From positions 1 through 35,010 of IMG/VR virus record IMGVR_UViG_3300017781_000053: a stretch of 35,010 nt of DNA; one strand, 5' to 3'. Position 1 is the stretch's first letter; every line of letters begins with the position of its first letter. A model generated the notes under the pieces. The model had not been told where the DNA came from. It saw only the letters and a program-made list of their open reading frames with translations, and did no database searches. Positions 7,082-35,010 of this stretch are shown one piece after another. Source of the DNA: a virus. Made by a program: the position numbers and the translations under genes.

Positions 7082-7273
7082 ATGAACGGTATATCTCAAG
7101 ACGATGTGAGTGCGATCAAGCATATTAACTTTGTGACAAACAATTCACACAACCTCATCACCGAATTATATGAAGACTTAATGGAGAGGGATCATCAAGA
7201 AGCAAAAGCTAAGGCACAAAAAGTTTGTAAACTTATGGCTGATTTAATTCAGTCATTATCTGATGAAGTTTAA
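7082..7273 (+). CDS. Small helical protein, 63 residues, with own promoter
   Basis: The product reads as two or three amphipathic helices (DDVSAIKHINFVTNNSHNLITELYEDLMERD and HQEAKAKAQKVCKLMADLIQSLSDEV) with no membrane segment. I do not recognise it. A clear Bacteroidota-type promoter at 7031-7061 and an A8 leader precede the ATG, so it may be expressed independently of the operon, as small early host-modulating phage genes often are; that role is only a guess. Its stop codon TAA (7271-7273) overlaps the stop of the giant - strand gene (7270-7272), making a tail-to-tail junction with no gap. Confidence 0.65.
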   Translation: MNGISQDDVSAIKHINFVTNNSHNLITELYEDLMERDHQEAKAKAQKVCKLMADLIQSLSDEV

Positions 7274-10200
7274 TTCCTTGTTCTTTTTTCTCTAGGAGCT
7301 CTCTTTCTCGTTTCTCTAGGAGCTCTCTTTTCTCTAGGAGCTCTCTTTTCTCTAGTATTTTTATTTAATTCCTCTAACATCTTAGCTCTTTTACTTTCAT
7401 CGTTGTCAATAACATAATCAGAATATCCTAATGCCCTTAACCAATAACCATTAGTAGTTAAGTAATTACCAGCTTTATCTTTACCAGTGATTAATTGATT
7501 TACATTGTATACTAATTGTGTAGCTTTAGTAACTGGAACTAAAGATAGTTCTGCAATTGAACCAAACGCATCTAAAGCATATTGATCTTTTTTAGGGTTA
7601 TCTGGTTTAGCATTATTCCATCTACTCCATTTTCTATATATATTTTCTGTAAATTCTTGATAAGATATACCCCTAACATCTCCCGCATATGGCTTGTCTT
7701 GAACCATATCAGCTAAAGAAGTTACCAAGTCACCCACTAAAAATAATCCATTGATGTTCCCTAATACTGCAGCTCTTATTAAATCATACTCATCTTCATC
7801 ATCATAGTCTGTTAGTAAACCAGGTAGCCCTAAAGTTACATATTGAAATGTCATAGGCATTACAAAATGATACAACATTAAATTTCTCATGTTATCTATA
7901 AGCGAACCTTTACCTGCATTAGCTGCAGCAGTAAAAGGATTTTCTCCTTTAAATGTAGCTTTAGTAAATGCATTAATCTTTCGATAAAGTTGTCTTATAG
8001 CATATCTTTCTTTTCTTAAATATTGTTTTGGAGTTGTCTTAAACATATTTAAACTTCTCATTAAAGGATCTGATGTTTGGAAGAAATCTTTGTCTTGTAA
8101 GTCTTGAGACTGTTGTGTTCCCTTAGTATCTTTTTCAAATCTTTTTATAGCAAAATCTATAGCTTCTTGTTTAGTTGCTTTAGGGTTATTTTTTAAATAC
8201 CTTTCTTTGTAGTACATATAATTAGGCACACCACCTAAATATATTGCTCCAGCATCCCCAGCTCTAGAAAATGCTAGTGATATTCCCATTAAAGTTTCTT
8301 TTCCTAATCCAGGAATTAATTGTGGTAATTTAGATGAGCCTTCTGCATATGATTCAAGTGATTTTTCAAAAGAATTCGAATATCTATCTTTTAGATAAAT
8401 TGAGTTCTGATGAATTTCTTTCATAGAACCAAACACTCTTCCTGTAGCTAGTCCCTTGCCATAATAATACATCCAATTAGCCACACCTATATCACCCATA
8501 TAAGTGAAAAGGGACAATAACTGTTTTACTGCAATTACTGGAGACAGTGCTAATCTTGTTCCTAAAAATATATCATTCATTGCATTTACAAAAACCGCAC
8601 CTCTTCCACTGCTTATACCTCTTGTTGCAATTTTTTGTATTATTTCATTAATTAAAAAATTATAATCTTCTCCTTTAGTACTTCTTATAGCGTCTTGAAT
8701 TAAAGGATTTGTAAATATTTTATTTACATCTCTTACATTTTCTCCATATGCAGCAAAGTAGTTCATGTCTGTCAAATAACTATTTAGGACACTATTACCA
8801 CTCATAGGTCTTATAGGTTTATTACTTGCTTGTCTTCCTAATAAAGATGAGCTTCCTACATTAGTTTGATATATATTAGATGAACCTATTAAATCAACAT
8901 TGTCATTATCTTTTTCTGCAATACCTTCTCTATAAATACGACCACTATATAATTTGTTCCAAGGTAAATCTGTTCGGTATATATTTTTATATACATTATT
9001 ATATCTTTCATATATAGAAGGAAAAAATTCATTAGTCTGCCAGTCTGCCCATGCTTTTAATTCTGGAGACATGGACTCAGTCAATTCTTTCATTATTCTA
9101 TCTGCATCTGGACCAAATAATTTGTTGTCTGGATTTAAAAAAGATGCTCTATTCGCTGGATCTTTAAATTGATTATACAAATAGTAAGTCTGAGAATCTG
9201 ATAATGTTATTTGTTGGTTTAATCGCACTTGGTTTAAGTTTGATTTAGCTTTTCTTCTATTAATAATACCTTGAGCCTCTTGATATTTTTTTTCTGCAAC
9301 TTCAACTGCTTTTACATCTCTGTATATAACTTTACCATCTTTTGATTTTCTTCCTTCTCTTCCTATAAAAGTTTGCTTTGGCTTTTCCATTGATCGTATT
9401 TTTTGCCTTGCTATAACTTTTCTAACTCTATCTGGCACTGGAATACCTTTTATTTTTTTTGGACCTCCAAAAAGTTCAACATATTTCTCAGCCATAATTC
9501 TATTGTCTTCTAACTGATATTGCTTGTAAACCCTAGAAGACTCATTTAACTTTTCATAAACTAACTCTTGAGTCCTTCCCTCAAACATTAAACCAGGTAA
9601 ATTAGATATTGCATCCATTATGTTTTGCAAACTATCTCCTCTTCTCAGAAATCCAACAGTAGCATTTTTGACAACCTTTAATATTTTTGTAACAGCGAAA
9701 CGAGAATTTTGCTCTGCTTTTTCTTTTGCAATTTCTCTTTCATTTAATATTTTCTTTGCTTTAGCTATGGCTTCAGGATCGCTAAAGTCTAATTTTTCTC
9801 CAGTTATATCTTCATAGATATATTCATTACGAACCCTATACCCTTCACTTGCTTCTGCTATTTGATTATTTAATTCATTTCTTCCACTAGCAACTAAACT
9901 TTCTAAATTTGCTAGAACATTATCTAAAGATTCTACCTTACTAGCTTGATCAATCCCCATATACATGGAACTGTTTATCTCAATAGCCAATTGATAGTCG
10001 GCAACCTCATTGTTTTGTTCTTCTGTTAATTCAATTCCGTTTAACAGTTTGTCTATACGATTTTGTAGAAGAGCATTTCTTTCTCCTATGATTTCTGCTA
10101 ACTTATTTTTCTTTTCTTCTGCTCTTTCTTTACCTTTTAAATCTTTATCTACAACACTACTTAATACACCTTTTGCTTGTTTTAATAAAACATATTGTTT

Positions 10201-13200
10201 TATCCTGTCTATTCGTTTTCTTATAGTATTAGATATTTTATTAGCTTTAGACTTATTGTTTTCGACTTTTACATATTTGTCATATAATAGATTATCTATT
10301 TTATTTTCTAAAATTTCACTATTAATAGTATTAATTTCTTCTACAACTTCATTTACTATATTATCAATGTTTTTTTGAACTGCATTGATGTCTTTTAATT
10401 TTCGCATCAACTTTATAACCCTTGGTTTTTTATAAGCTATATCTGGTAAAGATTTTCTAACAAAAGATAATAGTGCTTGTTGAATAGCATACCTGTTTTT
10501 TACACCTTTAGTTCTTTGTTTCATTGCTTTCACAGCAGTGCTTATTCTTTCTCTTATATTTTGAGTTGGTCTACTTCCTAGAGCTTTTACTGTAGCAGAA
10601 ACTAACAAAGTCTGTAAATCTGATTGTGTAGCTTTTTCAGCAACATCTGAAACAAATTCCTTAGAATTATCTCTTTCGATGTTTTTTACATTTGTTTGTG
10701 TAAATTCTGGTTGTTCTTGTAAATACTCTAAAGTTCTATCTACTATTTGTGCTTTAGTTAATTTAGTTTTTCTATTTTTATTTGAAGCTTCTAGTTTGTT
10801 AAATTTTTTCATTACCTTATTATACAAGGCTTTTCCTTTTTTCAACCCTAAATTTAAAAATACTTTAGGCATGACTGGACTTACACCAGTAAAGACATCA
10901 GCTGTCTCAATAGCACTTTTAATTTCTTTACTTGTAACTCCTTTAATTCTTTTTAAATAATCTATTATAGCAACATCTGATCTTCCTGCATTCCTTTCAT
11001 TTATTATAATTTGTGCGTTAGATGAGGAATCATCAAACTGATATCTTTGATTTTTTGCATAAGGATTATAAAACCTATTGTTCTTTTTCAAATAATATCC
11101 AGTAGGCTGATTGTAATTGTATGCTCTTCTATCTCTAACCCTTCCTATTTCTACTGTAAAGCCTAAATCTTTTGCTCTAGCTCTAAATGTTTTTAAATCT
11201 CTTGGTTGTAATTTATTGTAATCAATAAAACCACTATCTTCCATAGCATAAAACTTACCTAAACTTTTTATGTCTTTTTGGTTTCTAGTTTCACTTATAT
11301 TTATCGATGTAGTATCTAGTGCTACAACATCTTGACTTGTTCCAAACGTAGGAAATACATTACTTTCTCTTGTTGGTGTTACTATTTTATTTGTAGAGGG
11401 ATCTTTAGTTATTTGATTCCATTGTGGTCTATTAGTTAGTATATTAACAATTGATTTTTGTGACTTATCTACCGTTTCTATTGCAAAAGGATAAGATTCA
11501 TGCTTATTGCTTTCAACAGCTTTTACCTTACTATCTACCTCAAGCATAGCATATACTTGCCCTCCCTTATCTCTGGCATTAAAACCATCTTTTAAAATAG
11601 GTTCGGTTAACATTTCAGATAATGCCTGAATCATATTTGCTTTAGATATTTTTAATGACTTTCCTTGATATTTGAAATATTTATTTTGAATACCTTCGCT
11701 AAATATGGTGCCAAATTGTTCAACTGCTTTTGGGTTTTTAATTATTTCTTCAGACATCAAGCCAATTAAAGTTTGAGCAAATAACTTTCTGTCATTAAAT
11801 GAACTGTTGTCTGCTCCTAAAGCTGTTTTTATTTTTTTTAGATTAGATTGAAAACTATCTGTTTTTTTTAATTTTAATTGTTTTCCTAAACCTGTTTTTG
11901 TAATCGTAACTTTATCAGTCTTTTTGTTTTTTTTCTCAACTATACTTTCAAAGTTGGCAGCTTCTATAATTGCTTTTTGAACTATTGGCTTTCTTAATTT
12001 TAATTTTCTATCAAGAGCAATAGAATTAAAAAAATCTAAAACTGCATTAGACATAGTCGTACTAGAAAGTAATTTATCATATGGTGCACTGGTTAGAGCC
12101 ATGTATATTTTACCCCCATTAGCATCAAAAGATTTATTTAATTTCTCTGCCATTTCTTTAGCACTATCTCTTGTAGCTGCCCAAAAATAATTATCATCAT
12201 GAAATTTTAATGTATAATATATACCTCCTTTACCTTCTACTAACTTTTGTCCATCTTTAAATATATTACCACTAAATGCACCATCTGGTTGATGCAGAAC
12301 TACTGTTTTTCCATTAAAGTCTTGTATAGGTCTGTCTCTAGTAATAAAATTTTTATCTTCAAGCAATTTAAATTTTCCTTTGTTTTTTAAATATTCAAAA
12401 CTTAATCCAGACTGTTCATCTACAAAATCAGCTTGAAACCTATTGTTTTCTTTTTCAATCTTTGTTTCAGAAGTAGATTCTGTGGTTTGTTCTTTACTAA
12501 CCTTCTTTTTAGTTGTTTTTTTCTTAGGAGTAGTTTTTTTTGTATCTGTACTTTCTGTTGTAGATTCTGTAGGTAATTGTGTTTCTATATCCTTTAATAC
12601 CTGTAAGTCTTCTGCTACAATTTCAGTTCCAGAAGTAACTTTGCCAGCAACTACATTCATAAATTGTACAATATCATTATCTGTTTTTGTAAATTCACTT
12701 ACATATTTGTCTAGTTTTAATAATTTAAGAATATCATTAATAAATTTTCTAACAACACCTTGTTCTTTAGGTTTTAATGATTTAAAACTACCAGCAATAA
12801 GTCCAAATAATTCTGCAACTTTTTCTTCACTTTGTACATTTTCATCATATGTACTGGCAAATTCATCTAAGTAAGCTTCCAAAGATTTAGTATTTCCTTC
12901 TTTATCTTTAATCTTTACTTTAGATAAAGCTTTTGAATTTTTTATACTAGAAATCATTTTCTTAGTTAATCCTTGCAGATTACTATTTATACCTAAGGTC
13001 TCTATTAAAACTGCATGTGCTACTTCGTGAGCAATAGTTGTTGTTGAGGCTTTAGACGCATTTATGTATATTGTTTTTTTATCTACATTATAATTACCTC
13101 TTGTATCTGTACCTGTTAAAAGCCTATAGGTGTCGGCATCCTCTACTATTTTTATTTTAACATTTGGTAAAACTTTAGCTAATGCTTTACCTGCTTTAAT

Positions 13201-15426
13201 TGCAGTATTAACTACCTTATTATAACCAGCTATTGCTTTTTCACCTACTATATTTTCAATTTTTTGATAATTACTTACATTATCTAAAACAGTTTCTTCT
13301 TTAACTTTTATTTTAACACCGTCATTAGATGTTTCAGTTGTTTCGGTAGATTCATTTCTTTTCATTGGCGAATCTTGTTCAATAGATTTTTCTTCTATTG
13401 CTTGAGATTCACTAATTAATTCATCTAATTTAGTTTGTACTTGCTCTGGCGAAGGATCAACCACTCCATCTTTTTCTAGTTCCGATATAGCATCTTTATC
13501 TGTAATTGTTGTTTTCTTAACTATTTTCTCTTTCGTTGTTTCCGTAACCTCATTTTTGTCGGTTTGTTCTTGCTGACTCTGATCGGTAACTCCCCCGGTG
13601 GTGTCTCCTTTTCCCATCTTTTGGCGATTTTCGGTAGATTCTTGTGCATCCAGGCTCTTTGTTTCTGACTTAAAAATGGCATCTGCTTTTGATTTAATTT
13701 GTTCTGGAGATGGATTTTCCACCCCTTCTTTTCTTAGCTCTTCAACAGCTCTTTCATCTAGAGTACCATTGTACTTTTCTACTATAGCTTTAATTTCTTT
13801 TTTAATTGCTTTATTTTTTAATTGATTAGATTCTAATTCTAGATTACCTATTTTAGAACGTTCTACTTCTAAATCAATTAATCTTTCTCTTTCAGGACCT
13901 GCCGGAACATTAGGATCAACTTCTAATGAAAAATTTGCTCTAGACCTAGCATCTGTAACGATTTTATTTCTAGCAGGATCATTTTTTATTTGTATACCTA
14001 ACTCTGAAGATGCTAATTGTTCTGGAGTCATGGTGTTTATTAAATTATCAACATATGATTGTGTAACCCTTTCACCATTAACTATGTATTTGGGAACAGT
14101 CAATAAGCCACCAGTAATAGAAATAGGAGCTGTAGATAATCCAGCTATACCTTCTAAAAATATATCTTTTTTATCCATTTCTTGTCCTGCCGCTACTCTT
14201 CCTAATGCCTCCCCTCCAGAACCTAAACCTCCTTCAATAGCAATAGCACCTGTAACACCTCCGATTTTTTTTGCTTGTATGTTTTTTACTCCCTTTGTAG
14301 CTTTTGCTAATTTTCCCGTACCTCCTTTTAACCCTATTCTTCCTACAGTACCCACAAAAGCCTTACTCATACCAAACGACAAAGCTTCTACAGCGGCAAT
14401 AGTCATACCTCTTGACAGTGCTCTGTTTTTTACATTATTCATTGTTGTTTGATTTTGCAATGTCTCTCTAACACCCTCTACTGTCATAGGAGTGCCTTCT
14501 TTTTTCATTTCTTCACTCAAAAACTCTGTAAAACTTATTCCAGTTTCAAGCGCTGCAGTGGCACCTCCAATCATACCAGATATTGCTCCACCTCCTGCGC
14601 CTACAAATCCCGCTATAGCAGAACCTATTGGAGTTCCGATTGAACCAGCAGCAGCACCAATTCCACCTCCTGCTAATGCACCTGTACCTGCACCAATTCC
14701 ACCAGCTAATGCTGGAGCTGGTTGTAACATTGAGACAATAGATTGAACTAATACAGCTGGAGCTATACTAAAATTATTCATTAATCCCATAGTTAAGCCT
14801 TTTAAACCTCCCCCATTTTCATCAGAAATTCGACTAAATTCTTTCATTTCATCACTTTCTGGCTGACTATTCATATAATTTACTGCATTGATATAGTCTT
14901 GTATATCTTCATCGGTTAAATTTCTAGGCTTAGAACTCATTAACCCTAAAAACTCATCAACACCTTGACCTTGTGCAACACCAGTTTCGCCCGCTCTATA
15001 TATATCACCAAAAAAATCTGTAAGAGGGTTTTTACCAAATGTCCTTTCTAATAATGTTGGAGCCTCTTGGGTATCCATAAAGTCTTCTCTTTCTACTTCT
15101 TGAACTACAGGTGTTATTTGTTGTTGTTGTTGTAACTCTTGTTCAGTAGGTTGGTCTAATGAAACTCTATTGTCGAATATATCGGTTTGTTGTCCTTGTG
15201 GATTAATATCTGTTTCTATAGAATCATCAACAGGAGAAGAAAAAAATTGATCCTGAAAATCTAAAAATGATTTTGTATAGAGTTTATCTTTATTTAAAGA
15301 GTTGTAGAGTTTTTTTTGTTTAGTAGAATCACTAAACTGTTTTACAAAGTCTTCAAAACTTTTAGTATATAATTTAGACTTATACAATTCATCGTATAGC
15401 TTTCTTAAAGATTCGTTTTGTGCCAT
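7270..15426 (-). CDS. Giant polyvalent internal virion (ejection) protein with metallopeptidase motif
   Basis: This 2718-residue protein is the last and largest of the structural operon and is probably packaged and injected with the DNA. Residues 8-61 hold two copies of a short helical motif containing KLYTKSF. A poly-Gln stretch is near 98-103. A Gly/Ala-rich hydrophobic region (about 222-296) could insert in membranes. Two related segments containing NPSPEQ and DPSPEQ lie at about 560-586 and 645-672. HEVAH (800-804), preceded by a beta strand (TIYINA), is a gluzincin-type zinc peptidase motif. The middle (about 1040-1350) resembles domains seen in large polyvalent proteins. The C-terminal part has long coiled helices and hydrophobic segments near LALSPVIAVKQLLSLF. 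The last 27 residues repeat RAPREK. No RNA polymerase DxDxD motif was found. It starts 10 bases after the upstream stop. Confidence 0.75.
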   Translation of the reverse strand: MAQNESLRKLYDELYKSKLYTKSFEDFVKQFSDSTKQKKLYNSLNKDKLYTKSFLDFQDQFFSSPVDDSIETDINPQGQQTDIFDNRVSLDQPTEQELQQQQQITPVVQEVEREDFMDTQEAPTLLERTFGKNPLTDFFGDIYRAGETGVAQGQGVDEFLGLMSSKPRNLTDEDIQDYINAVNYMNSQPESDEMKEFSRISDENGGGLKGLTMGLMNNFSIAPAVLVQSIVSMLQPAPALAGGIGAGTGALAGGGIGAAAGSIGTPIGSAIAGFVGAGGGAISGMIGGATAALETGISFTEFLSEEMKKEGTPMTVEGVRETLQNQTTMNNVKNRALSRGMTIAAVEALSFGMSKAFVGTVGRIGLKGGTGKLAKATKGVKNIQAKKIGGVTGAIAIEGGLGSGGEALGRVAAGQEMDKKDIFLEGIAGLSTAPISITGGLLTVPKYIVNGERVTQSYVDNLINTMTPEQLASSELGIQIKNDPARNKIVTDARSRANFSLEVDPNVPAGPERERLIDLEVERSKIGNLELESNQLKNKAIKKEIKAIVEKYNGTLDERAVEELRKEGVENPSPEQIKSKADAIFKSETKSLDAQESTENRQKMGKGDTTGGVTDQSQQEQTDKNEVTETTKEKIVKKTTITDKDAISELEKDGVVDPSPEQVQTKLDELISESQAIEEKSIEQDSPMKRNESTETTETSNDGVKIKVKEETVLDNVSNYQKIENIVGEKAIAGYNKVVNTAIKAGKALAKVLPNVKIKIVEDADTYRLLTGTDTRGNYNVDKKTIYINASKASTTTIAHEVAHAVLIETLGINSNLQGLTKKMISSIKNSKALSKVKIKDKEGNTKSLEAYLDEFASTYDENVQSEEKVAELFGLIAGSFKSLKPKEQGVVRKFINDILKLLKLDKYVSEFTKTDNDIVQFMNVVAGKVTSGTEIVAEDLQVLKDIETQLPTESTTESTDTKKTTPKKKTTKKKVSKEQTTESTSETKIEKENNRFQADFVDEQSGLSFEYLKNKGKFKLLEDKNFITRDRPIQDFNGKTVVLHQPDGAFSGNIFKDGQKLVEGKGGIYYTLKFHDDNYFWAATRDSAKEMAEKLNKSFDANGGKIYMALTSAPYDKLLSSTTMSNAVLDFFNSIALDRKLKLRKPIVQKAIIEAANFESIVEKKNKKTDKVTITKTGLGKQLKLKKTDSFQSNLKKIKTALGADNSSFNDRKLFAQTLIGLMSEEIIKNPKAVEQFGTIFSEGIQNKYFKYQGKSLKISKANMIQALSEMLTEPILKDGFNARDKGGQVYAMLEVDSKVKAVESNKHESYPFAIETVDKSQKSIVNILTNRPQWNQITKDPSTNKIVTPTRESNVFPTFGTSQDVVALDTTSINISETRNQKDIKSLGKFYAMEDSGFIDYNKLQPRDLKTFRARAKDLGFTVEIGRVRDRRAYNYNQPTGYYLKKNNRFYNPYAKNQRYQFDDSSSNAQIIINERNAGRSDVAIIDYLKRIKGVTSKEIKSAIETADVFTGVSPVMPKVFLNLGLKKGKALYNKVMKKFNKLEASNKNRKTKLTKAQIVDRTLEYLQEQPEFTQTNVKNIERDNSKEFVSDVAEKATQSDLQTLLVSATVKALGSRPTQNIRERISTAVKAMKQRTKGVKNRYAIQQALLSFVRKSLPDIAYKKPRVIKLMRKLKDINAVQKNIDNIVNEVVEEINTINSEILENKIDNLLYDKYVKVENNKSKANKISNTIRKRIDRIKQYVLLKQAKGVLSSVVDKDLKGKERAEEKKNKLAEIIGERNALLQNRIDKLLNGIELTEEQNNEVADYQLAIEINSSMYMGIDQASKVESLDNVLANLESLVASGRNELNNQIAEASEGYRVRNEYIYEDITGEKLDFSDPEAIAKAKKILNEREIAKEKAEQNSRFAVTKILKVVKNATVGFLRRGDSLQNIMDAISNLPGLMFEGRTQELVYEKLNESSRVYKQYQLEDNRIMAEKYVELFGGPKKIKGIPVPDRVRKVIARQKIRSMEKPKQTFIGREGRKSKDGKVIYRDVKAVEVAEKKYQEAQGIINRRKAKSNLNQVRLNQQITLSDSQTYYLYNQFKDPANRASFLNPDNKLFGPDADRIMKELTESMSPELKAWADWQTNEFFPSIYERYNNVYKNIYRTDLPWNKLYSGRIYREGIAEKDNDNVDLIGSSNIYQTNVGSSSLLGRQASNKPIRPMSGNSVLNSYLTDMNYFAAYGENVRDVNKIFTNPLIQDAIRSTKGEDYNFLINEIIQKIATRGISSGRGAVFVNAMNDIFLGTRLALSPVIAVKQLLSLFTYMGDIGVANWMYYYGKGLATGRVFGSMKEIHQNSIYLKDRYSNSFEKSLESYAEGSSKLPQLIPGLGKETLMGISLAFSRAGDAGAIYLGGVPNYMYYKERYLKNNPKATKQEAIDFAIKRFEKDTKGTQQSQDLQDKDFFQTSDPLMRSLNMFKTTPKQYLRKERYAIRQLYRKINAFTKATFKGENPFTAAANAGKGSLIDNMRNLMLYHFVMPMTFQYVTLGLPGLLTDYDDEDEYDLIRAAVLGNINGLFLVGDLVTSLADMVQDKPYAGDVRGISYQEFTENIYRKWSRWNNAKPDNPKKDQYALDAFGSIAELSLVPVTKATQLVYNVNQLITGKDKAGNYLTTNGYWLRALGYSDYVIDNDESKRAKMLEELNKNTREKRAPREKRAPRETRKRAPREKRTRN
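7289..7355. repeat. 18-bp tandem repeat coding for the basic tail of the giant protein
   Basis: TCTCTAGGAGCTCTCTTT occurs at 7289-7306, 7313-7330 and 7331-7348, with a partial copy at 7349-7355. Copies 2 and 3 are directly adjacent, and copy 1 is separated by 6 bases. On the - strand each unit encodes K-R-A-P-R-E, giving a repeated Arg/Lys-rich C-terminus. Each unit also contains the palindrome GAGCTC. Confidence 0.85.
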
Positions 15427-29506: not shown

Positions 29507-30970
29507 TTAGTCCTTAAAGATAAAGAAGTTGTTTGCACCTAAAGTACATACAGCTCTTTCGCTTAAGAAATTGACTTCCATTGCATCTAAAGATGAAGTT
29601 CTTGCACCACCAGCTGAACCAGTTATCCAAGTTTTGTATCTTCTATCTTCAGTTTCAGAAGCTCTATATCTAACGTGTAAGAATGGTCTTTTAGCATTCT
29701 TTCCTAAGATTTGGTCATATACAGTAGTTGAACCAGCTGGAACTAATAATCCATTAACTGCTCCACCAACTAAACCACCTCTCATTGTAGGATCGTTTAA
29801 GTACTTCCAGTCAGACTTATAAAAATCATAACCTCTTCTAAATCCTGTAAATCCAAGATTTAATGCCATGTCTTTATCATTGTCAAATAGACCGTATGAT
29901 GTACCACCACCTCCATAAGAGTTTTGTTGTGCTAACATATCATCAATATCAAACGAGAAGTTTCTGTTTAAGAAAATAACATTTTCCTCAATAGAACCTT
30001 GTTTGTCTAATCTTTGAATAACACTATCAAACTGAGCTAAACTAGTTGGATTACCTCCACCAAAAATATTACCTCTAGTTTCAACAGCATAGAAAATACC
30101 ATCAGAACCAGATTTCTCTGCTGCTGATGCACCACCTGCTGCTAAACCTTGTAGGTAGTTACCTGCATCAGAACCTGCTTCTGCTGGAACTGCTTCCACC
30201 ATAGCTGTTTCTAAATAATCTTCAAATCTAAGTCTTGTTTCGTGCTCAGATTTAAGATACCATAAATATCCATTAGCTCCGTTTTCAGACTGGATTTCAA
30301 TCCAACCGATTTGAGCCATATCAGAACCAGATACTTCATACTTGTCTTTGATAATGATAGGTTTGTTTTGAAAGATAAAATCATCTGCTTCGTTAGAACC
30401 AACCATTCCAGTTGTTCCTTTTGCAAATTCAGAACCATAAATAAAACAATCAATAGAACCTGAAGTGAATGCAGGCATACCCGCTGCCGAGTAAAAACCT
30501 ACACTAAAAGTTCTTGCCGCTGCACCAGTTCCTGTTGGAGCTGCTGTTATAATTCCTTTAGCTGATAGTGTTGATCCTGCAACAGAAGAACTTAACATTA
30601 CTGTTTGTCCTGCTCTAAGAGCTGCCAAATTTGGCGAAGCTAATGCTGGATTAAAATCACCTGCTGGAATAACAAATACTGCTGTATCAGAAGCTGCTGC
30701 TGATGCTGTTGTTAAACCTGTGTATTTATTGTGTAACCTTCCTTGTTCTGCCCATTTAATAAGGTCAGAGTTAGAAGGCATTTCAGCGCCTACCATTCTT
30801 AAGAATGATGCTACTGTTCTATTCCCGTATCTTTCGAATTCTTTTTCGTAAGTGTCAGGAAGATATTGCTGTAACCAAGTAAAGTCTGCCGAAGACAGAT
30901 AATTAGTTGATACAGGGACTTGTTGTGAACTCGGTTGTAAATCGAATCCGGGTACCGCTTGTACTGCCAT
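29507..30970 (-). CDS. Major capsid protein (crAss-like, HK97 fold)
   Basis: The 487-residue protein forms the icosahedral shell. The N-terminal region with FTWLQQYLPDTYEKEFERYGNRTVASFLRMV and SNSDLIKWAEQGRLHNKY (about 29-82) matches the conserved opening of crAss-like major capsid proteins. A Thr/Ala/Gly-rich beta section follows (about 85-185), then IKDKYEVSGSDMAQIGWIE and a long E-loop/core region, ending RAVCTLGANNFFIFKD. HK97-type fold is family knowledge, not proven here. It follows the scaffold gene with a 22-base gap and is followed by a strong UUCG-loop terminator, as expected for a highly expressed gene. GC content and Ala/Gly codon use are slightly higher than in the neighbours, consistent with strong expression. 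Confidence 0.85.
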   Translation of the reverse strand: MAVQAVPGFDLQPSSQQVPVSTNYLSSADFTWLQQYLPDTYEKEFERYGNRTVASFLRMVGAEMPSNSDLIKWAEQGRLHNKYTGLTTASAAASDTAVFVIPAGDFNPALASPNLAALRAGQTVMLSSSVAGSTLSAKGIITAAPTGTGAAARTFSVGFYSAAGMPAFTSGSIDCFIYGSEFAKGTTGMVGSNEADDFIFQNKPIIIKDKYEVSGSDMAQIGWIEIQSENGANGYLWYLKSEHETRLRFEDYLETAMVEAVPAEAGSDAGNYLQGLAAGGASAAEKSGSDGIFYAVETRGNIFGGGNPTSLAQFDSVIQRLDKQGSIEENVIFLNRNFSFDIDDMLAQQNSYGGGGTSYGLFDNDKDMALNLGFTGFRRGYDFYKSDWKYLNDPTMRGGLVGGAVNGLLVPAGSTTVYDQILGKNAKRPFLHVRYRASETEDRRYKTWITGSAGGARTSSLDAMEVNFLSERAVCTLGANNFFIFKD

Positions 30971-30992: not shown

Positions 30993-32138
30993 TTAAACTT
31001 TTTTAATACTTCTAATTTTAAGTCCTCTTCCACTATTGGTATCTCCTACAGCCCTTATTCTCATACCATCTTTTGTGACAGTTTGTTGAGCAGCGTTTCT
31101 AATATCCATGTTTATGTTTTTAGATTTTCTAGAAACATTATCCACAGTTGCCGAAACACCTTGGTCGTAAAAAAATTGAGCAAATTTCTCAGGGTTCATA
31201 GCTACTGCTAGTGAACGATGATATCCCGTTGGATCAGACACAAGACCTGTGTTTTTGTCTAAAAATTTGTTAACCCAATTGTTAACATCTCCTTGTACAT
31301 TTTTAAGCTCTTCTGCCGTTCCTGGTTTAAAAGTTATATTATTATCTCCTACATTAAATTCAAAACCTTTGAATTCATTGTTAAAAACCTCATTAGTTTT
31401 TTGATGGAAATAATCAAATTTCTTTTGATTTTGCTCCTCAATAGATTTAGATTCTTTAAGATAACTTTCATAAGCATTTAAATTTTCTTGTTGATCGTTA
31501 GATAATTGATCCCCACTTGACTCAAGAGGCATTTTATATTTATCTTTCTGCTCATTCAAAAACTTTTTCGCTTTCGCAAGTTCTCGTTTTTTTGCTAATT
31601 TTTTCTTCTTAATATCTCGTGGCTCATCTAGTTCTTCATCAAAACTAAACTTATCCTCCATGATATCTTGAATATCTATAGCATCTAACCCATCTTCGGT
31701 TATGCTATAATAATTAGCTAGTACAGAGTCATCTTCCATGGTATCGTAATCTTTCTGTAAATTATAGAAATCTTGTATACCACGTCCAGTGTCTTTTTTG
31801 TACTTTAAATACGCGGACACATCTTCAGGTAATTCTTCGTTTGCTTCTTTTTCCTCAAACAATTCATCAACTGAGTTTATGTCTTTGTTGTATCTATCTC
31901 TAATATAAGAAAGAACGTTTTCATCATTTAACTCTGATGAGGGAGTTTCATCAATTGTCTCTGATGAGGGAGTTTCTTTTTCAGTATCGTTTTCATTTGA
32001 AACCTCTACTGTATCTGTTTGTTCTTCTTGTTGCTCACTGTCTTCAAACTTTTCTTCATGTTTTTGTAACAATGACTCTTCTATTTCAGCTTTAGACTTT
32101 TCTTCTTTATGACCTAAGTCTCTTACTTTTATTTCCAT
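30993..32138 (-). CDS. Scaffolding / capsid assembly protein
   Basis: This 381-residue highly acidic, largely helical protein sits between portal/phosphatase and capsid, the usual place of a scaffold. Residues 1-80 are Glu/Asp/Ser/Thr-rich and include a short duplicated segment (ETPSSETIDE, then ETPSSELNDE). Residues 90-170 contain YIRDRYNKDINSVDELFEE and DFYNLQKDYDTMEDDS, a pattern also seen in such proteins of other podoviruses. A basic Lys-rich stretch (DIKKKKLAKKRELAKAKK) lies near 185-202 and may contact the shell. The C-terminal part (KFAQFFYDQGVSATVDNVSRK, then RNAAQQTVTKDG) is more conserved-looking and may bind capsid. There is no protease motif. It starts 44 bases after the phosphatase stop, with a possible TAACTTTG box between. 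Confidence 0.7.
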   Translation of the reverse strand: MEIKVRDLGHKEEKSKAEIEESLLQKHEEKFEDSEQQEEQTDTVEVSNENDTEKETPSSETIDETPSSELNDENVLSYIRDRYNKDINSVDELFEEKEANEELPEDVSAYLKYKKDTGRGIQDFYNLQKDYDTMEDDSVLANYYSITEDGLDAIDIQDIMEDKFSFDEELDEPRDIKKKKLAKKRELAKAKKFLNEQKDKYKMPLESSGDQLSNDQQENLNAYESYLKESKSIEEQNQKKFDYFHQKTNEVFNNEFKGFEFNVGDNNITFKPGTAEELKNVQGDVNNWVNKFLDKNTGLVSDPTGYHRSLAVAMNPEKFAQFFYDQGVSATVDNVSRKSKNINMDIRNAAQQTVTKDGMRIRAVGDTNSGRGLKIRSIKKV

Positions 32139-32164: not shown

Positions 32165-32172
32165 CAAAGTTA
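32165..32172 (-). promoter_or_regulatory. Possible -7 promoter box before the scaffold gene
   Basis: TAACTTTG on the - strand fits TAnnTTTG and lies 26 bases before the ATG at 32138. No good -33 TTG is seen at the expected spacing, so it is a weak call. It would allow scaffold and capsid to be made independently of portal. Confidence 0.3.
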
Positions 32173-32181
32173 AACAAAAAA

Positions 32182-32718
32182 TTAAACATTTTTTAGGTGA
32201 TTATATAAGTCCATTCCTAATTGCTCACCAACTCTTTTATCACTCTCATAATGCACATTAGCTAGTATTCTGCTTTTAGATATATTATCTGCTGCTTTTT
32301 GAAATTGCGAAGTTAATTCTGGAAATTTGTCACTTAAAACTTCTTTTATTAAATATGCTTGAGCCGAGTGACCAGATGGGAATGAAGCGGTTTGTGCAGA
32401 TGACATCTTTACATAAGGTAATGAAATACCAAATCCTTTTGCTATGACATTAGGTCGTTCACGATTATGATAATTTTTAATTTTTAATATTGGTTTTTTG
32501 CTTTCAGTTAATAAATTTTTAACCATTTCAAAAGGAAATATTCTTTTTTTATTAATAAAAATATTTTTAAAAACATTAAATATATTGTTATATTTTAACG
32601 CAAAGGCTTTATCTAAAGGTTTAGCCTGTAAATCTTTTATTTCGCTTAAAGTTTTCAAAGATGAATCAGATGGATATTTTATTGTTTTATATTTTTGTAA
32701 ATTAAAATTGTCAAACAT
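32182..32718 (-). CDS. PAP2-superfamily phosphatase (class A acid-phosphatase-like)
   Basis: The 178-residue product carries all three active-site motifs of the PAP2/class A acid phosphatase superfamily in order. K81-x6-RP (KNYHNRERP, 81-89) comes first, then PSGH (114-117) in SFPSGHSAQAY, then SR-x5-H-x3-D (149-160, SRILANVHYESD). The general acid and nucleophile histidines are therefore both present (H117, H156). There is no signal peptide and no transmembrane helix, so it should be soluble in the host cytoplasm or packed in the virion, unlike the membrane lipid phosphatases. It overlaps the portal stop by one base (TAATG), so it is co-translated with portal, and scaffold follows. Substrate is unknown; phosphate salvage, lipid or carrier-lipid phosphates, or a structural role are possible. 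Confidence 0.85.
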   Translation of the reverse strand: MFDNFNLQKYKTIKYPSDSSLKTLSEIKDLQAKPLDKAFALKYNNIFNVFKNIFINKKRIFPFEMVKNLLTESKKPILKIKNYHNRERPNVIAKGFGISLPYVKMSSAQTASFPSGHSAQAYLIKEVLSDKFPELTSQFQKAADNISKSRILANVHYESDKRVGEQLGMDLYNHLKNV

Positions 32719-35010
32719 TACCTTGGCTCAAATTCTGCTAAATCAAACCCATCTAAACTATCTTCATTAGATTCAAAATTTATTGCTGGTAAATTTCTTT
32801 TTTTCTGCTCAATCATTTTAGATGTTTGAGTTGATTGTTGACTAATACGAGAATTTTTAGCTTTTTCTCTTTCATTTTCTCTTGACTGTAAACCTTGTTG
32901 CTCAACACCTTTTAACTGCATTTGAAATTGAAATTCTGTCTGCATAAGCTGTTCTTTCAACATAGCTTCATTTTTTAACTTTTCTATTTCAAAACTTATT
33001 TCAGCTTGTTTTACTTGCATTTTGGATTGAGTTTCCATTTGCATTTTTTGAGCTTCTAACTGAGCTTGTGCTTGTTGCCCTTGCATTTGCATTTGAGCAG
33101 CCATCTGTTGTTCTTGTTGTTTTTGTTGTAGCTCTGACTCTTGTTTTTGCTTTCTTTTTAACTTAAGCAATTGATTAGCCATTTTAAGATTATTAATCTC
33201 TCTAATGTCAATAGCATCCTCAAGACTTATATTTTCCTTAGACAATGCCATTTGGATGTTTTGTTCCAACATAGCTTTTTGTTCTTCATCAGGAGCCATT
33301 TCTATAAAAATACCAAAGTCATACAAGTATAAATCTTTTATTTCTTCTAAAATTGAAGAATTATATTTGCCAATTTGCATTATAAATTCATCTTTAAAAT
33401 CAGCAAATTCTAATATATCAACAGTTCTAATAGACAAACATTCTGCAATTGTTCTAGTTATATATAAACTGCCATCTAAAATATGACGTGTAGCAGTATT
33501 GCTATTAAGTGCTGCTAATTTTTGTACTCCAACTAAAGCATTAGGATCTGGAGTTGTACCATCCCTCGCTTCATTTAAACCAGTAACACCTCTGATCATG
33601 TCTAGATAATGATTGTAGTTAGCAATAAGCATTTGCATTTTGCTTGAGCCACTGTTAGCTGTTAATTGTTGTATAGGCACTTTCGCATTATTAAATTCTC
33701 CATCTTGAGTAAAACTTCTACCAATAACACTACCTGTTTGAAAATATAATCTTAAAGCATCTTCTGGATTATATGCATTACCTGTTCCTAAATCAACTTC
33801 ATTTAATCCATCAGCATCAATAAAAACACCATCTGGTACAATTCTAGAAACTACTTGTTGAATTTTTAAATGAGTCATTTGTATTAAATCTGCAAACGGA
33901 ATCATTCTTCTAACCAAAGACTCTAACTGTCCTTTATACATTCTCGGTGCACATGCAACATAATTAGGCATCGCAAATTGATTTGCTGATTTTGGTCTTA
34001 CCATGTTTTCAGCTAATTTCCATTCTAAAACAATATTAGTACCCATGACCATTACACCAGTATACCATACATCAATTCTTTTTTCTACTTTTTCAAAATT
34101 ACCTTCTTCCATCATTTCTTGTGGTGGATTGAACTGATCATCTTTTTGAACAGTCTTGTAAGAACCATCTGATAATTTTTTCCGTTTATATACAAATGAA
34201 TGTGTGGTTTTATAATTAAAATATAATAATGTTGCAGTATCTCTATAAAACATACTGTTTTCATAAAACTGTGAAGTGTTAAAATAATTATACCATGATT
34301 GACTATATTTAGCTATCTCATTTAAATCTGCATTAGTTAAAGATGGATCTATCTTTATTAATTCCGTCATGGGAACTGTTTTTATTTCTCCCCAATAGAA
34401 ACAATCTTTAAAATAAGGATCTTCTGTATAACTATACACTACATTAGCAGGATCAACATAATTTATTTTAACCCCTTGTCCTGGTAAAAATTCATGTTTA
34501 GTTATTCCAATACCTAGCGTAGTTAAATCATAATCTACTCGCCCTCTAATATCATTATAATGATTTTCTGAAAACAATGTATCTATTGCAACCTCTTGTG
34601 CAATTTCTATAGCAGGTTTGTATTTCATATTCATATACAACTCCATTTCCTCATCATTTTCAGGCAACTCATCAGGATTAGTTTGAAACACATTAACTCC
34701 AAACTCTTGTTCTATTTGTTCAAACAAAGGTTTTGCAATTACTTCACCTTCTATTTGTTTTTGAAACTCATTTCTTTTTTCAGCAGACATTGCGTCTTCT
34801 GCATATGCTTTTACTTTAAAAAGCCTGTCTGACATACCGTTAACAACAACATCTACAAATTTTGGAATAATTGGCACTGGTGTCCAATCTAAATTTAAAT
34901 AAGATAAATCACCATCTATAGCTAATTCGTTTTTATATTTAGCAATAGACTGTTCCCCTCGCGCGTACAGGCGCAGGCGCATGAACTCACCCCATTGATC
35001 ATAAAATCTA
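32718..35010 (-). CDS. Portal protein (start outside window)
   Basis: The portal forms the 12-fold ring at the head vertex through which DNA is packaged and ejected. At least 763 residues are present, because the frame is open through 35010; the ATG at 34982 is internal (upstream codons read RFYDQWGEF). Near the N-terminus WTPVPIIPKFVDVVVNGMSDRLF and then HYNDIRGRVDYDLTTLGIG, FLPGQGVKINYVDPANVVYS and CFYWGEIKTVP match the crAss-like portal core. A clip/wing region follows, with MYKGQLESLVRRMIPFADLIQ and GVTGLNEARDGT. The C-terminal 140 residues are Gln/Met-rich coiled coil (QQEQQMAAQMQMQGQQAQ), as in barrel domains. The stop overlaps the phosphatase start as TAATG. Codons at 34953-34982 are unusually GC-rich. 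Confidence 0.85.
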   Translation of the reverse strand, partial: RFYDQWGEFMRLRLYARGEQSIAKYKNELAIDGDLSYLNLDWTPVPIIPKFVDVVVNGMSDRLFKVKAYAEDAMSAEKRNEFQKQIEGEVIAKPLFEQIEQEFGVNVFQTNPDELPENDEEMELYMNMKYKPAIEIAQEVAIDTLFSENHYNDIRGRVDYDLTTLGIGITKHEFLPGQGVKINYVDPANVVYSYTEDPYFKDCFYWGEIKTVPMTELIKIDPSLTNADLNEIAKYSQSWYNYFNTSQFYENSMFYRDTATLLYFNYKTTHSFVYKRKKLSDGSYKTVQKDDQFNPPQEMMEEGNFEKVEKRIDVWYTGVMVMGTNIVLEWKLAENMVRPKSANQFAMPNYVACAPRMYKGQLESLVRRMIPFADLIQMTHLKIQQVVSRIVPDGVFIDADGLNEVDLGTGNAYNPEDALRLYFQTGSVIGRSFTQDGEFNNAKVPIQQLTANSGSSKMQMLIANYNHYLDMIRGVTGLNEARDGTTPDPNALVGVQKLAALNSNTATRHILDGSLYITRTIAECLSIRTVDILEFADFKDEFIMQIGKYNSSILEEIKDLYLYDFGIFIEMAPDEEQKAMLEQNIQMALSKENISLEDAIDIREINNLKMANQLLKLKRKQKQESELQQKQQEQQMAAQMQMQGQQAQAQLEAQKMQMETQSKMQVKQAEISFEIEKLKNEAMLKEQLMQTEFQFQMQLKGVEQQGLQSRENEREKAKNSRISQQSTQTSKMIEQKKRNLPAINFESNEDSLDGFDLAEFEPR

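Follow-up and report, generated by a model that had tools for sequence, protein, structure and literature searches.

The 35,010-nucleotide stretch of DNA analyzed here, from a marine phage with known relatives among the phages of Flavobacteriia (the window; positions 1 to 35,010 of IMG/VR record IMGVR_UViG_3300017781_000053) encodes a soluble, PhoN-like phosphatase of the PAP2 family in its head-gene operon, directly downstream of the portal gene. The fold and the catalytic residues of this protein are conserved, and its gene is under purifying selection, occurs at a single location, has been gained and lost, and is found together with a distant pair of genes encoding a Lys/Met/Pro-rich basic protein and a small HExxH protein. 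The enzyme class is known; as far as our searches show, the non-secreted phage form, its fixed position and the three-gene association are new. The explanation that we prefer overall, with somewhat less than even confidence, is that the protein is a late cytoplasmic phosphomonoesterase that works with the gene pair and is perhaps virion cargo. A lone annotation thus becomes a testable system of three genes, comprising an exactly co-occurring distant pair and a fixed-site gene with an on/off distribution.

The ORF encodes a soluble protein with the class A acid phosphatase fold

The product of the phosphatase ORF (Table 1) carries the three intact PAP2 motifs that a preliminary description of this DNA had read from its 178 residues, namely K81-x6-R88-P89, P114-S115-G116-H117 and S149-R150-x5-H156-x3-D160. 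The Pfam PAP2 profile (PF01569) matched the window protein at E = 4.9e-6 with 26.8 bits, the gathering cut-off being 27.2. One relative (L082) passed the gathering score with 39.8 bits, and a match was obtained for all 17 relatives scanned (E ≤ 0.1; best 4.5e-10). When a profile of the family was compared with the PDB, PhoN class A acid phosphatases were found at 1.5e-10; the best 12 matches were acid phosphatases, with PhoN and other class A enzymes ranging from 1e-10 to 1e-5. Structure prediction, which had been proposed as a check of the class A assignment, gave an AlphaFold (AF2) model of high quality (pLDDT 96.2, pTM 0.92). Its top Foldseek matches were class A acid phosphatases (E 1.1e-5; TM 0.76 to PhoN), and membrane PAP2 enzymes scored well below these. 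The all-helical PAP2 fold was present in the model, and a non-PAP2 fold did not turn up.

Relatives of the phosphatase are encoded by 203 IMG/VR stretches. Among 83 distinct genes there were no internal stops, K81, R88, P89, S115, G116, H117, R150, H156 and D160 were invariant, and the median pairwise dN/dS was 0.125 (pairs with usable dS). These data confirm that the ORF encodes a real PAP2-family protein rather than a chance reading frame and show that the gene is under purifying selection. Hydropathy analysis found no membrane helix or signal-peptide segment in any of the 83 members, which extends the earlier remark on missing membrane helices to the whole family, and the N-terminus is charged and polar. 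The isoelectric points of the family range from 8.8 to 10.0 (median 9.6), whereas acidic proteins predominate among the head proteins of the window.

Class A acid phosphatases (Salmonella PhoN, EB-AP and PhoC; PF01569) share with the phage protein, besides the fold, all PAP2 catalytic residues, the Y-x-R-x-RP context and SR-x5-H-x3-D. However, the phage protein is only about 20–22% identical to them, is 178 rather than about 230 residues long, has no signal peptide and is the product of a late-operon phage gene. The class A signature G-S-Y-P-S-G-H-T is absent from the family, which reads T-[AP]-[AS]-[FY]-P-S-G-H-[SA]; the window protein has TPAFPSGHS where PhoN has GSYPSGHT. Membrane PAP2 enzymes (BcrC, PgpB and LpxE, including those annotated in phages) have the same catalytic motifs, whereas the phage protein is devoid of transmembrane helices (maximum 19-residue hydropathy, 1.03) and has lower structural scores against them. 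A viral protein in BFVD, A0A1B1IV46 (176 residues; 41% identical, TM 0.93), evidently belongs to the same family and has already been deposited without a name.

We found no close bacterial donor; the nearest cellular relatives were at most 38% identical over short stretches and about 30% over longer ones. Matches in GenBank phage records were fragments of at most 41% identity and included genes annotated as BcrC, as well as a contig that is filed as phage but is bacterial and contains a PhoN region. No cultured phage with the phosphatase gene was found among the GenBank phage records and the relatives inspected. PHROGs holds no curated family for a soluble, non-secreted enzyme of acid phosphatase fold in a phage head operon, and we found no paper describing such an enzyme, a literature search on phage PAP2 and portal proteins having returned nothing specific.

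Table 1. Features of the phosphatase locus in the window and of the distant gene pair in related phages.
Feature	Position	Strand	Details
PAP2 / PhoN-like phosphatase gene	32182..32718	-	178 aa; ATG start; pI 9.78; neither signal peptide nor TM helix
TAATG stop/start overlap, portal to PAP2	32716..32720	-	GGTAATGTTT
Portal protein gene	32718..34982	-	PHROG 6547 portal, 1.2e-132
TAnnTTTG-type -7 promoter box	32165..32172	-	TAACTTTG; after PAP2, before scaffold gene
Putative scaffold / head structural protein	30993..32138	-	381 aa; acidic, pI 4.69; PHROG 16786 (function not assigned)
Major-capsid-like virion structural protein	29507..30970	-	487 aa; PHROG 13704, 3.4e-98; weak Pfam Crass_capsid
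Lys-rich gene and abutting HExxH/LPWE gene (pair)	L330:15129-15874 (G006); L323:12754-13353; L335:7762-8307; L327:3562-4852		Lys-rich N-terminus KPMLNAIQKVKM; only in PAP2-bearing phages

The phosphatase gene is an optional cassette at one site

IMG/VR scans with PAP2 and with the portal yielded 213 unique portal-downstream junctions, of which 99 were empty, 90 contained PAP2, 22 contained other genes and 2 were undetermined. All PAP2 relatives whose flanks were retained sit between portal and scaffold, and none was located elsewhere. The TAATG coupling to the portal described earlier is present in the window, and the same -1 spacing occurs in 57 of the 90 unique PAP2 slots. The claimed position between portal and scaffold is likewise supported, the name scaffold being itself our reading of that gene (see below). 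Among 12 whole PAP2-positive records, an extra PAP2 copy was present only in a 105-kb contig (IMGVR_UViG_3300030101_004148, 105284 bases), in which two portals are each followed by their own, different PAP2, about 61 kb apart; this contig represents either two relatives that were joined in assembly or one genome that is duplicated.

In sets of slots sampled by portal alone, PAP2 was found in 17 of 67 nearer slots versus 0 of 67 more distant ones. The portal tree requires 9 changes of PAP2 state, at least 7 of them on well-supported branches. Four phages with portals 93–95% identical to that of the window (L026, L028, L030 and L031) have no PAP2. Alignment of the junctions revealed that PAP2 takes the place of a spacer roughly a dozen bases long and leaves the flanks intact. 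Natural clean deletions are available among phages with 93–95% portal identity. PAP2 and portal distances agree partly (Spearman 0.52), with clear allele swaps, for example in L070. PAP2 is an optional cassette that is exchanged at one site.

The Flavobacteriia phages Elemovirus, Maribacter phage Panino and Callevirus phi38:1, which are cultured, and the uncultured record MW202828 have portals 33–71% identical to that of the window and the same order of terminase, portal, scaffold-like and capsid genes. Unlike the PAP2-bearing phages, they have neither PAP2 nor the HExxH gene, and their scaffold-like gene directly follows the portal; the Lys-rich gene is absent from MW202828 and Elemovirus, the two tested. 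The order portal–phosphatase–scaffold that was expected of related phages thus holds in that the gene is never randomly placed or degraded, but the gene is absent from close relatives and from the cultured ones inspected. That it is optional, that its slot is common to small basic proteins and that a distant gene pair always accompanies it had escaped the preliminary description.

Other phages have small proteins of several unrelated families in this slot; most are extremely basic, and the commonest consist of about one-third Lys plus Arg. Lys/Arg-rich small proteins occupy it in L269, L274, L281, L289, L061, L091, L079, L080, L089 and L096, and one such family stands before PAP2 in L097, L142, L147 and L156. 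Two slot families (the KWVRIGTDG and AGIAWAKRTFD types) recur among the small basic genes arrayed around the HExxH gene, downstream of GroEL/GroES and about 10–22 kb upstream of PAP2.

Cellulophaga phage phi19:3, a distant relative, has at the equivalent site downstream of its portal a gene for a metallophosphoesterase-type exonuclease (PHROG 284) together with an HNH gene (L107:8273-9754). A calcineurin-like phosphoesterase gene (L310:7236-7994) was seen only in three PAP2-lacking records (G014, G015 and G017). A metallophosphatase as a general substitute for PAP2 was rejected on this count.

A distant gene pair accompanies the phosphatase

Gene content was compared first in 12 and then in 22 near-complete genomes, 11 with and 11 without PAP2, using the 80 families present in at least four of the 22. 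The sole family whose distribution matched that of PAP2 exactly (11/11 versus 0/11) encodes proteins of 112–122 residues (about 115), 10–22 kb from PAP2, with HExxH and LPWE motifs in all 31 partner proteins. A search of 57 records located the HExxH gene in 14 PAP2-positive and in none of 30 PAP2-negative records; from our reading of the contig coordinates, the PAP2-positive records without it end short of the expected locus. Conversely, an IMG/VR scan that started from the HExxH family recovered 32 contigs, and all 21 that reach the portal end carry PAP2.

The HExxH gene is directly preceded, in 29 of 31 loci, by a Lys/Met/Pro-rich gene whose length varies widely. An HMM of the latter (E < 1e-3) detected it in 10 of the 11 PAP2-positive versus 0 of the 11 PAP2-negative genomes, and in the eleventh PAP2-positive genome the end of the gene is visible by inspection, cut off at the contig edge. 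The pair lies near GroEL/GroES and structural genes. The window ends before this locus, so that the pair is known from relatives, and a copy belonging to the same genome would lie outside the stretch.

The model of the HExxH protein is of moderate confidence (pLDDT 68), and its structural matches, to the zincins IrrE, selecase and abylysin, are weak, with Foldseek E values of 0.29 or above only. Matches to PHROG 10499 and to metalloproteases were also weak. The match of the HExxH profile to one PDB chain (E 0.21) was discarded as an artefact, the alignment falling on the histidine tag.

Expression signals around the phosphatase gene

A TAnnTTTG box was found within 60 nt of the scaffold start (about 25 nt before it) in 189 of 210 slots, compared with 5% of random 60-mers, 1 of 213 portal ends and 0 of 194 regions upstream of the major capsid gene. 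TAnnTTTG is the -7 consensus of Flavobacterium sigma-A (PMC9723704). The cultured phages with portals related to that of the window infect Flavobacterium, Cellulophaga, Maribacter and Tenacibaculum. The box before the scaffold gene may be a late promoter signature of these uncultured phages. PAP2 lies upstream of the box and is thus probably transcribed together with the portal. The start of the portal gene is uncertain: 754 residues are read from the first ATG of the window, which ends at 35010, and the open frames of relatives span about 811. The gene after PAP2 presumably encodes a scaffold, as judged from its place ahead of the capsid gene and from how acidic the product is; relatives are annotated merely as structural protein or hypothetical.

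Proposed function and alternative explanations

According to the explanation that we favor, the gene product would be an active, soluble phosphomonoesterase with the class A acid phosphatase fold. By homology, His156 would serve as the phosphohistidine nucleophile, held by Asp160, and His117 as the acid; Lys81, Arg88, Arg150, Ser115 and Gly116 would bind the phosphate. Translational coupling to the portal and the position upstream of the capsid-gene promoter suggest that the enzyme is made late, at a portal-like level, in the cytoplasm of an infected Flavobacteriia-type host. There it would cooperate with the second, unlinked cassette, in which the gene for the Lys/Met/Pro-rich basic protein comes before that for a minimal, metalloprotease-like HExxH protein. 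We infer that the products of the three genes accompany the particle or are incorporated into it by processing: the protease may trim the basic protein, its putative substrate, and the basic phosphatase may be co-packaged and, soon after the next cell is infected, act on phosphorylated molecules of the host.

Capsid cargo proteins are packed in the podovirus-type Bacteroidota phage PhicrAss001 (PMC10172136), and this precedent, together with the company that the phosphatase keeps in its slot, is circumstantial support for packaging. The role of virion component suggested in the preliminary description is possible. Cultured relatives such as phi38:1, which have no PAP2 gene, count against our explanation. 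A more far-reaching version, in which the PhoN-like, HExxH and Lys/Met/Pro-rich proteins form an undescribed three-gene system whose two distant loci are passed on together and whose products the virion delivers, with protease and phosphatase acting, as infection begins, on substrates that belong to the host or are packaged, is rather unlikely.

The phosphatase could instead be an unpackaged cytoplasmic enzyme of anti-defence or host takeover that dephosphorylates a signalling nucleotide, a phosphoprotein or a nucleotide pool. Its gene would merely occupy a cargo slot in the late operon, and the HExxH protein would be a second counter-defence protein, a protease. Repeated gain and loss, the swapping of alleles, the soluble cytoplasmic form and the constant company of two unlinked enzymes would all suit such a role. 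However, neither PADLOC nor any other defence-related comparison gave a match, apart from a meaningless one to Cas3d at 0.011, and the late-operon position suggests expression too late for counter-defence unless the enzyme is packaged. We regard this alternative as unlikely.

Rather less probable is an optional role in assembly or maturation. As the procapsid is built, the phosphatase would dephosphorylate, or simply bind, the Lys-rich protein or one of the head proteins, and the HExxH protein would be a maturation protease. Its location between portal and putative scaffold, its coupling to the portal, its basic charge amid acidic head proteins and the proximity of the partner pair to GroEL/GroES and structural genes are in keeping with this role. 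Nevertheless, the phages with 93–95% identical portals and near-identical capsid genes that do without PAP2 argue against any general need for it in assembly, and the assembly factor proposed earlier is disfavored as one that these phages cannot do without.

PhoN-type enzymes are broad phosphomonoesterases, and the protein might thus be a metabolic helper that breaks down nucleotides and sugar phosphates inside the cell to release phosphate or nucleosides, that is, the product of an auxiliary gene for phosphorus acquisition. Acid phosphatase genes have been termed phosphorus auxiliary metabolic genes in marine viruses (PMC10721903), which counts in favor of this idea. On the other hand, extracellular organic phosphate would be out of reach of an enzyme without a signal peptide, and PAP2 is associated with a protease-like gene and with a structural slot rather than with a recognizable set of metabolic genes; we consider the idea improbable. 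The phosphate scavenging envisaged earlier was, for a secreted enzyme, rejected as the main reading, as no member has a signal peptide and the gene appears to be a late cytoplasmic one.

The co-occurrence of PAP2 and HExxH would carry no functional meaning if two unrelated optional cassettes had come to lie in the same lineages through shared ancestry and chance. The comparison comprises only 4–5 phylogenetically independent contrasts, all concordant, too few for a sign test to attain 0.05. Allele distances of PAP2 and HExxH showed no correlation beyond portal kinship (partial r 0.18, p 0.16); allele-level co-evolution was therefore dropped. Against this equally improbable account, the exact pattern recurs in only 1 of 79 other families, the reciprocal scan was concordant across several PAP2-bearing clades, and the basic genes neighboring the HExxH array occur in both PAP2-bearing and PAP2-lacking groups, so the association is not mere synteny.

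Elsewhere in the window (7270-15426, minus strand), a protein of 2718 residues contains a zincin-like motif, AHEVAHAVL. A family of similar-looking giant proteins was present in 5 of 6 PAP2-lacking versus 1 of 6 PAP2-bearing genomes in the 12-genome comparison, possibly an effect of clustering.
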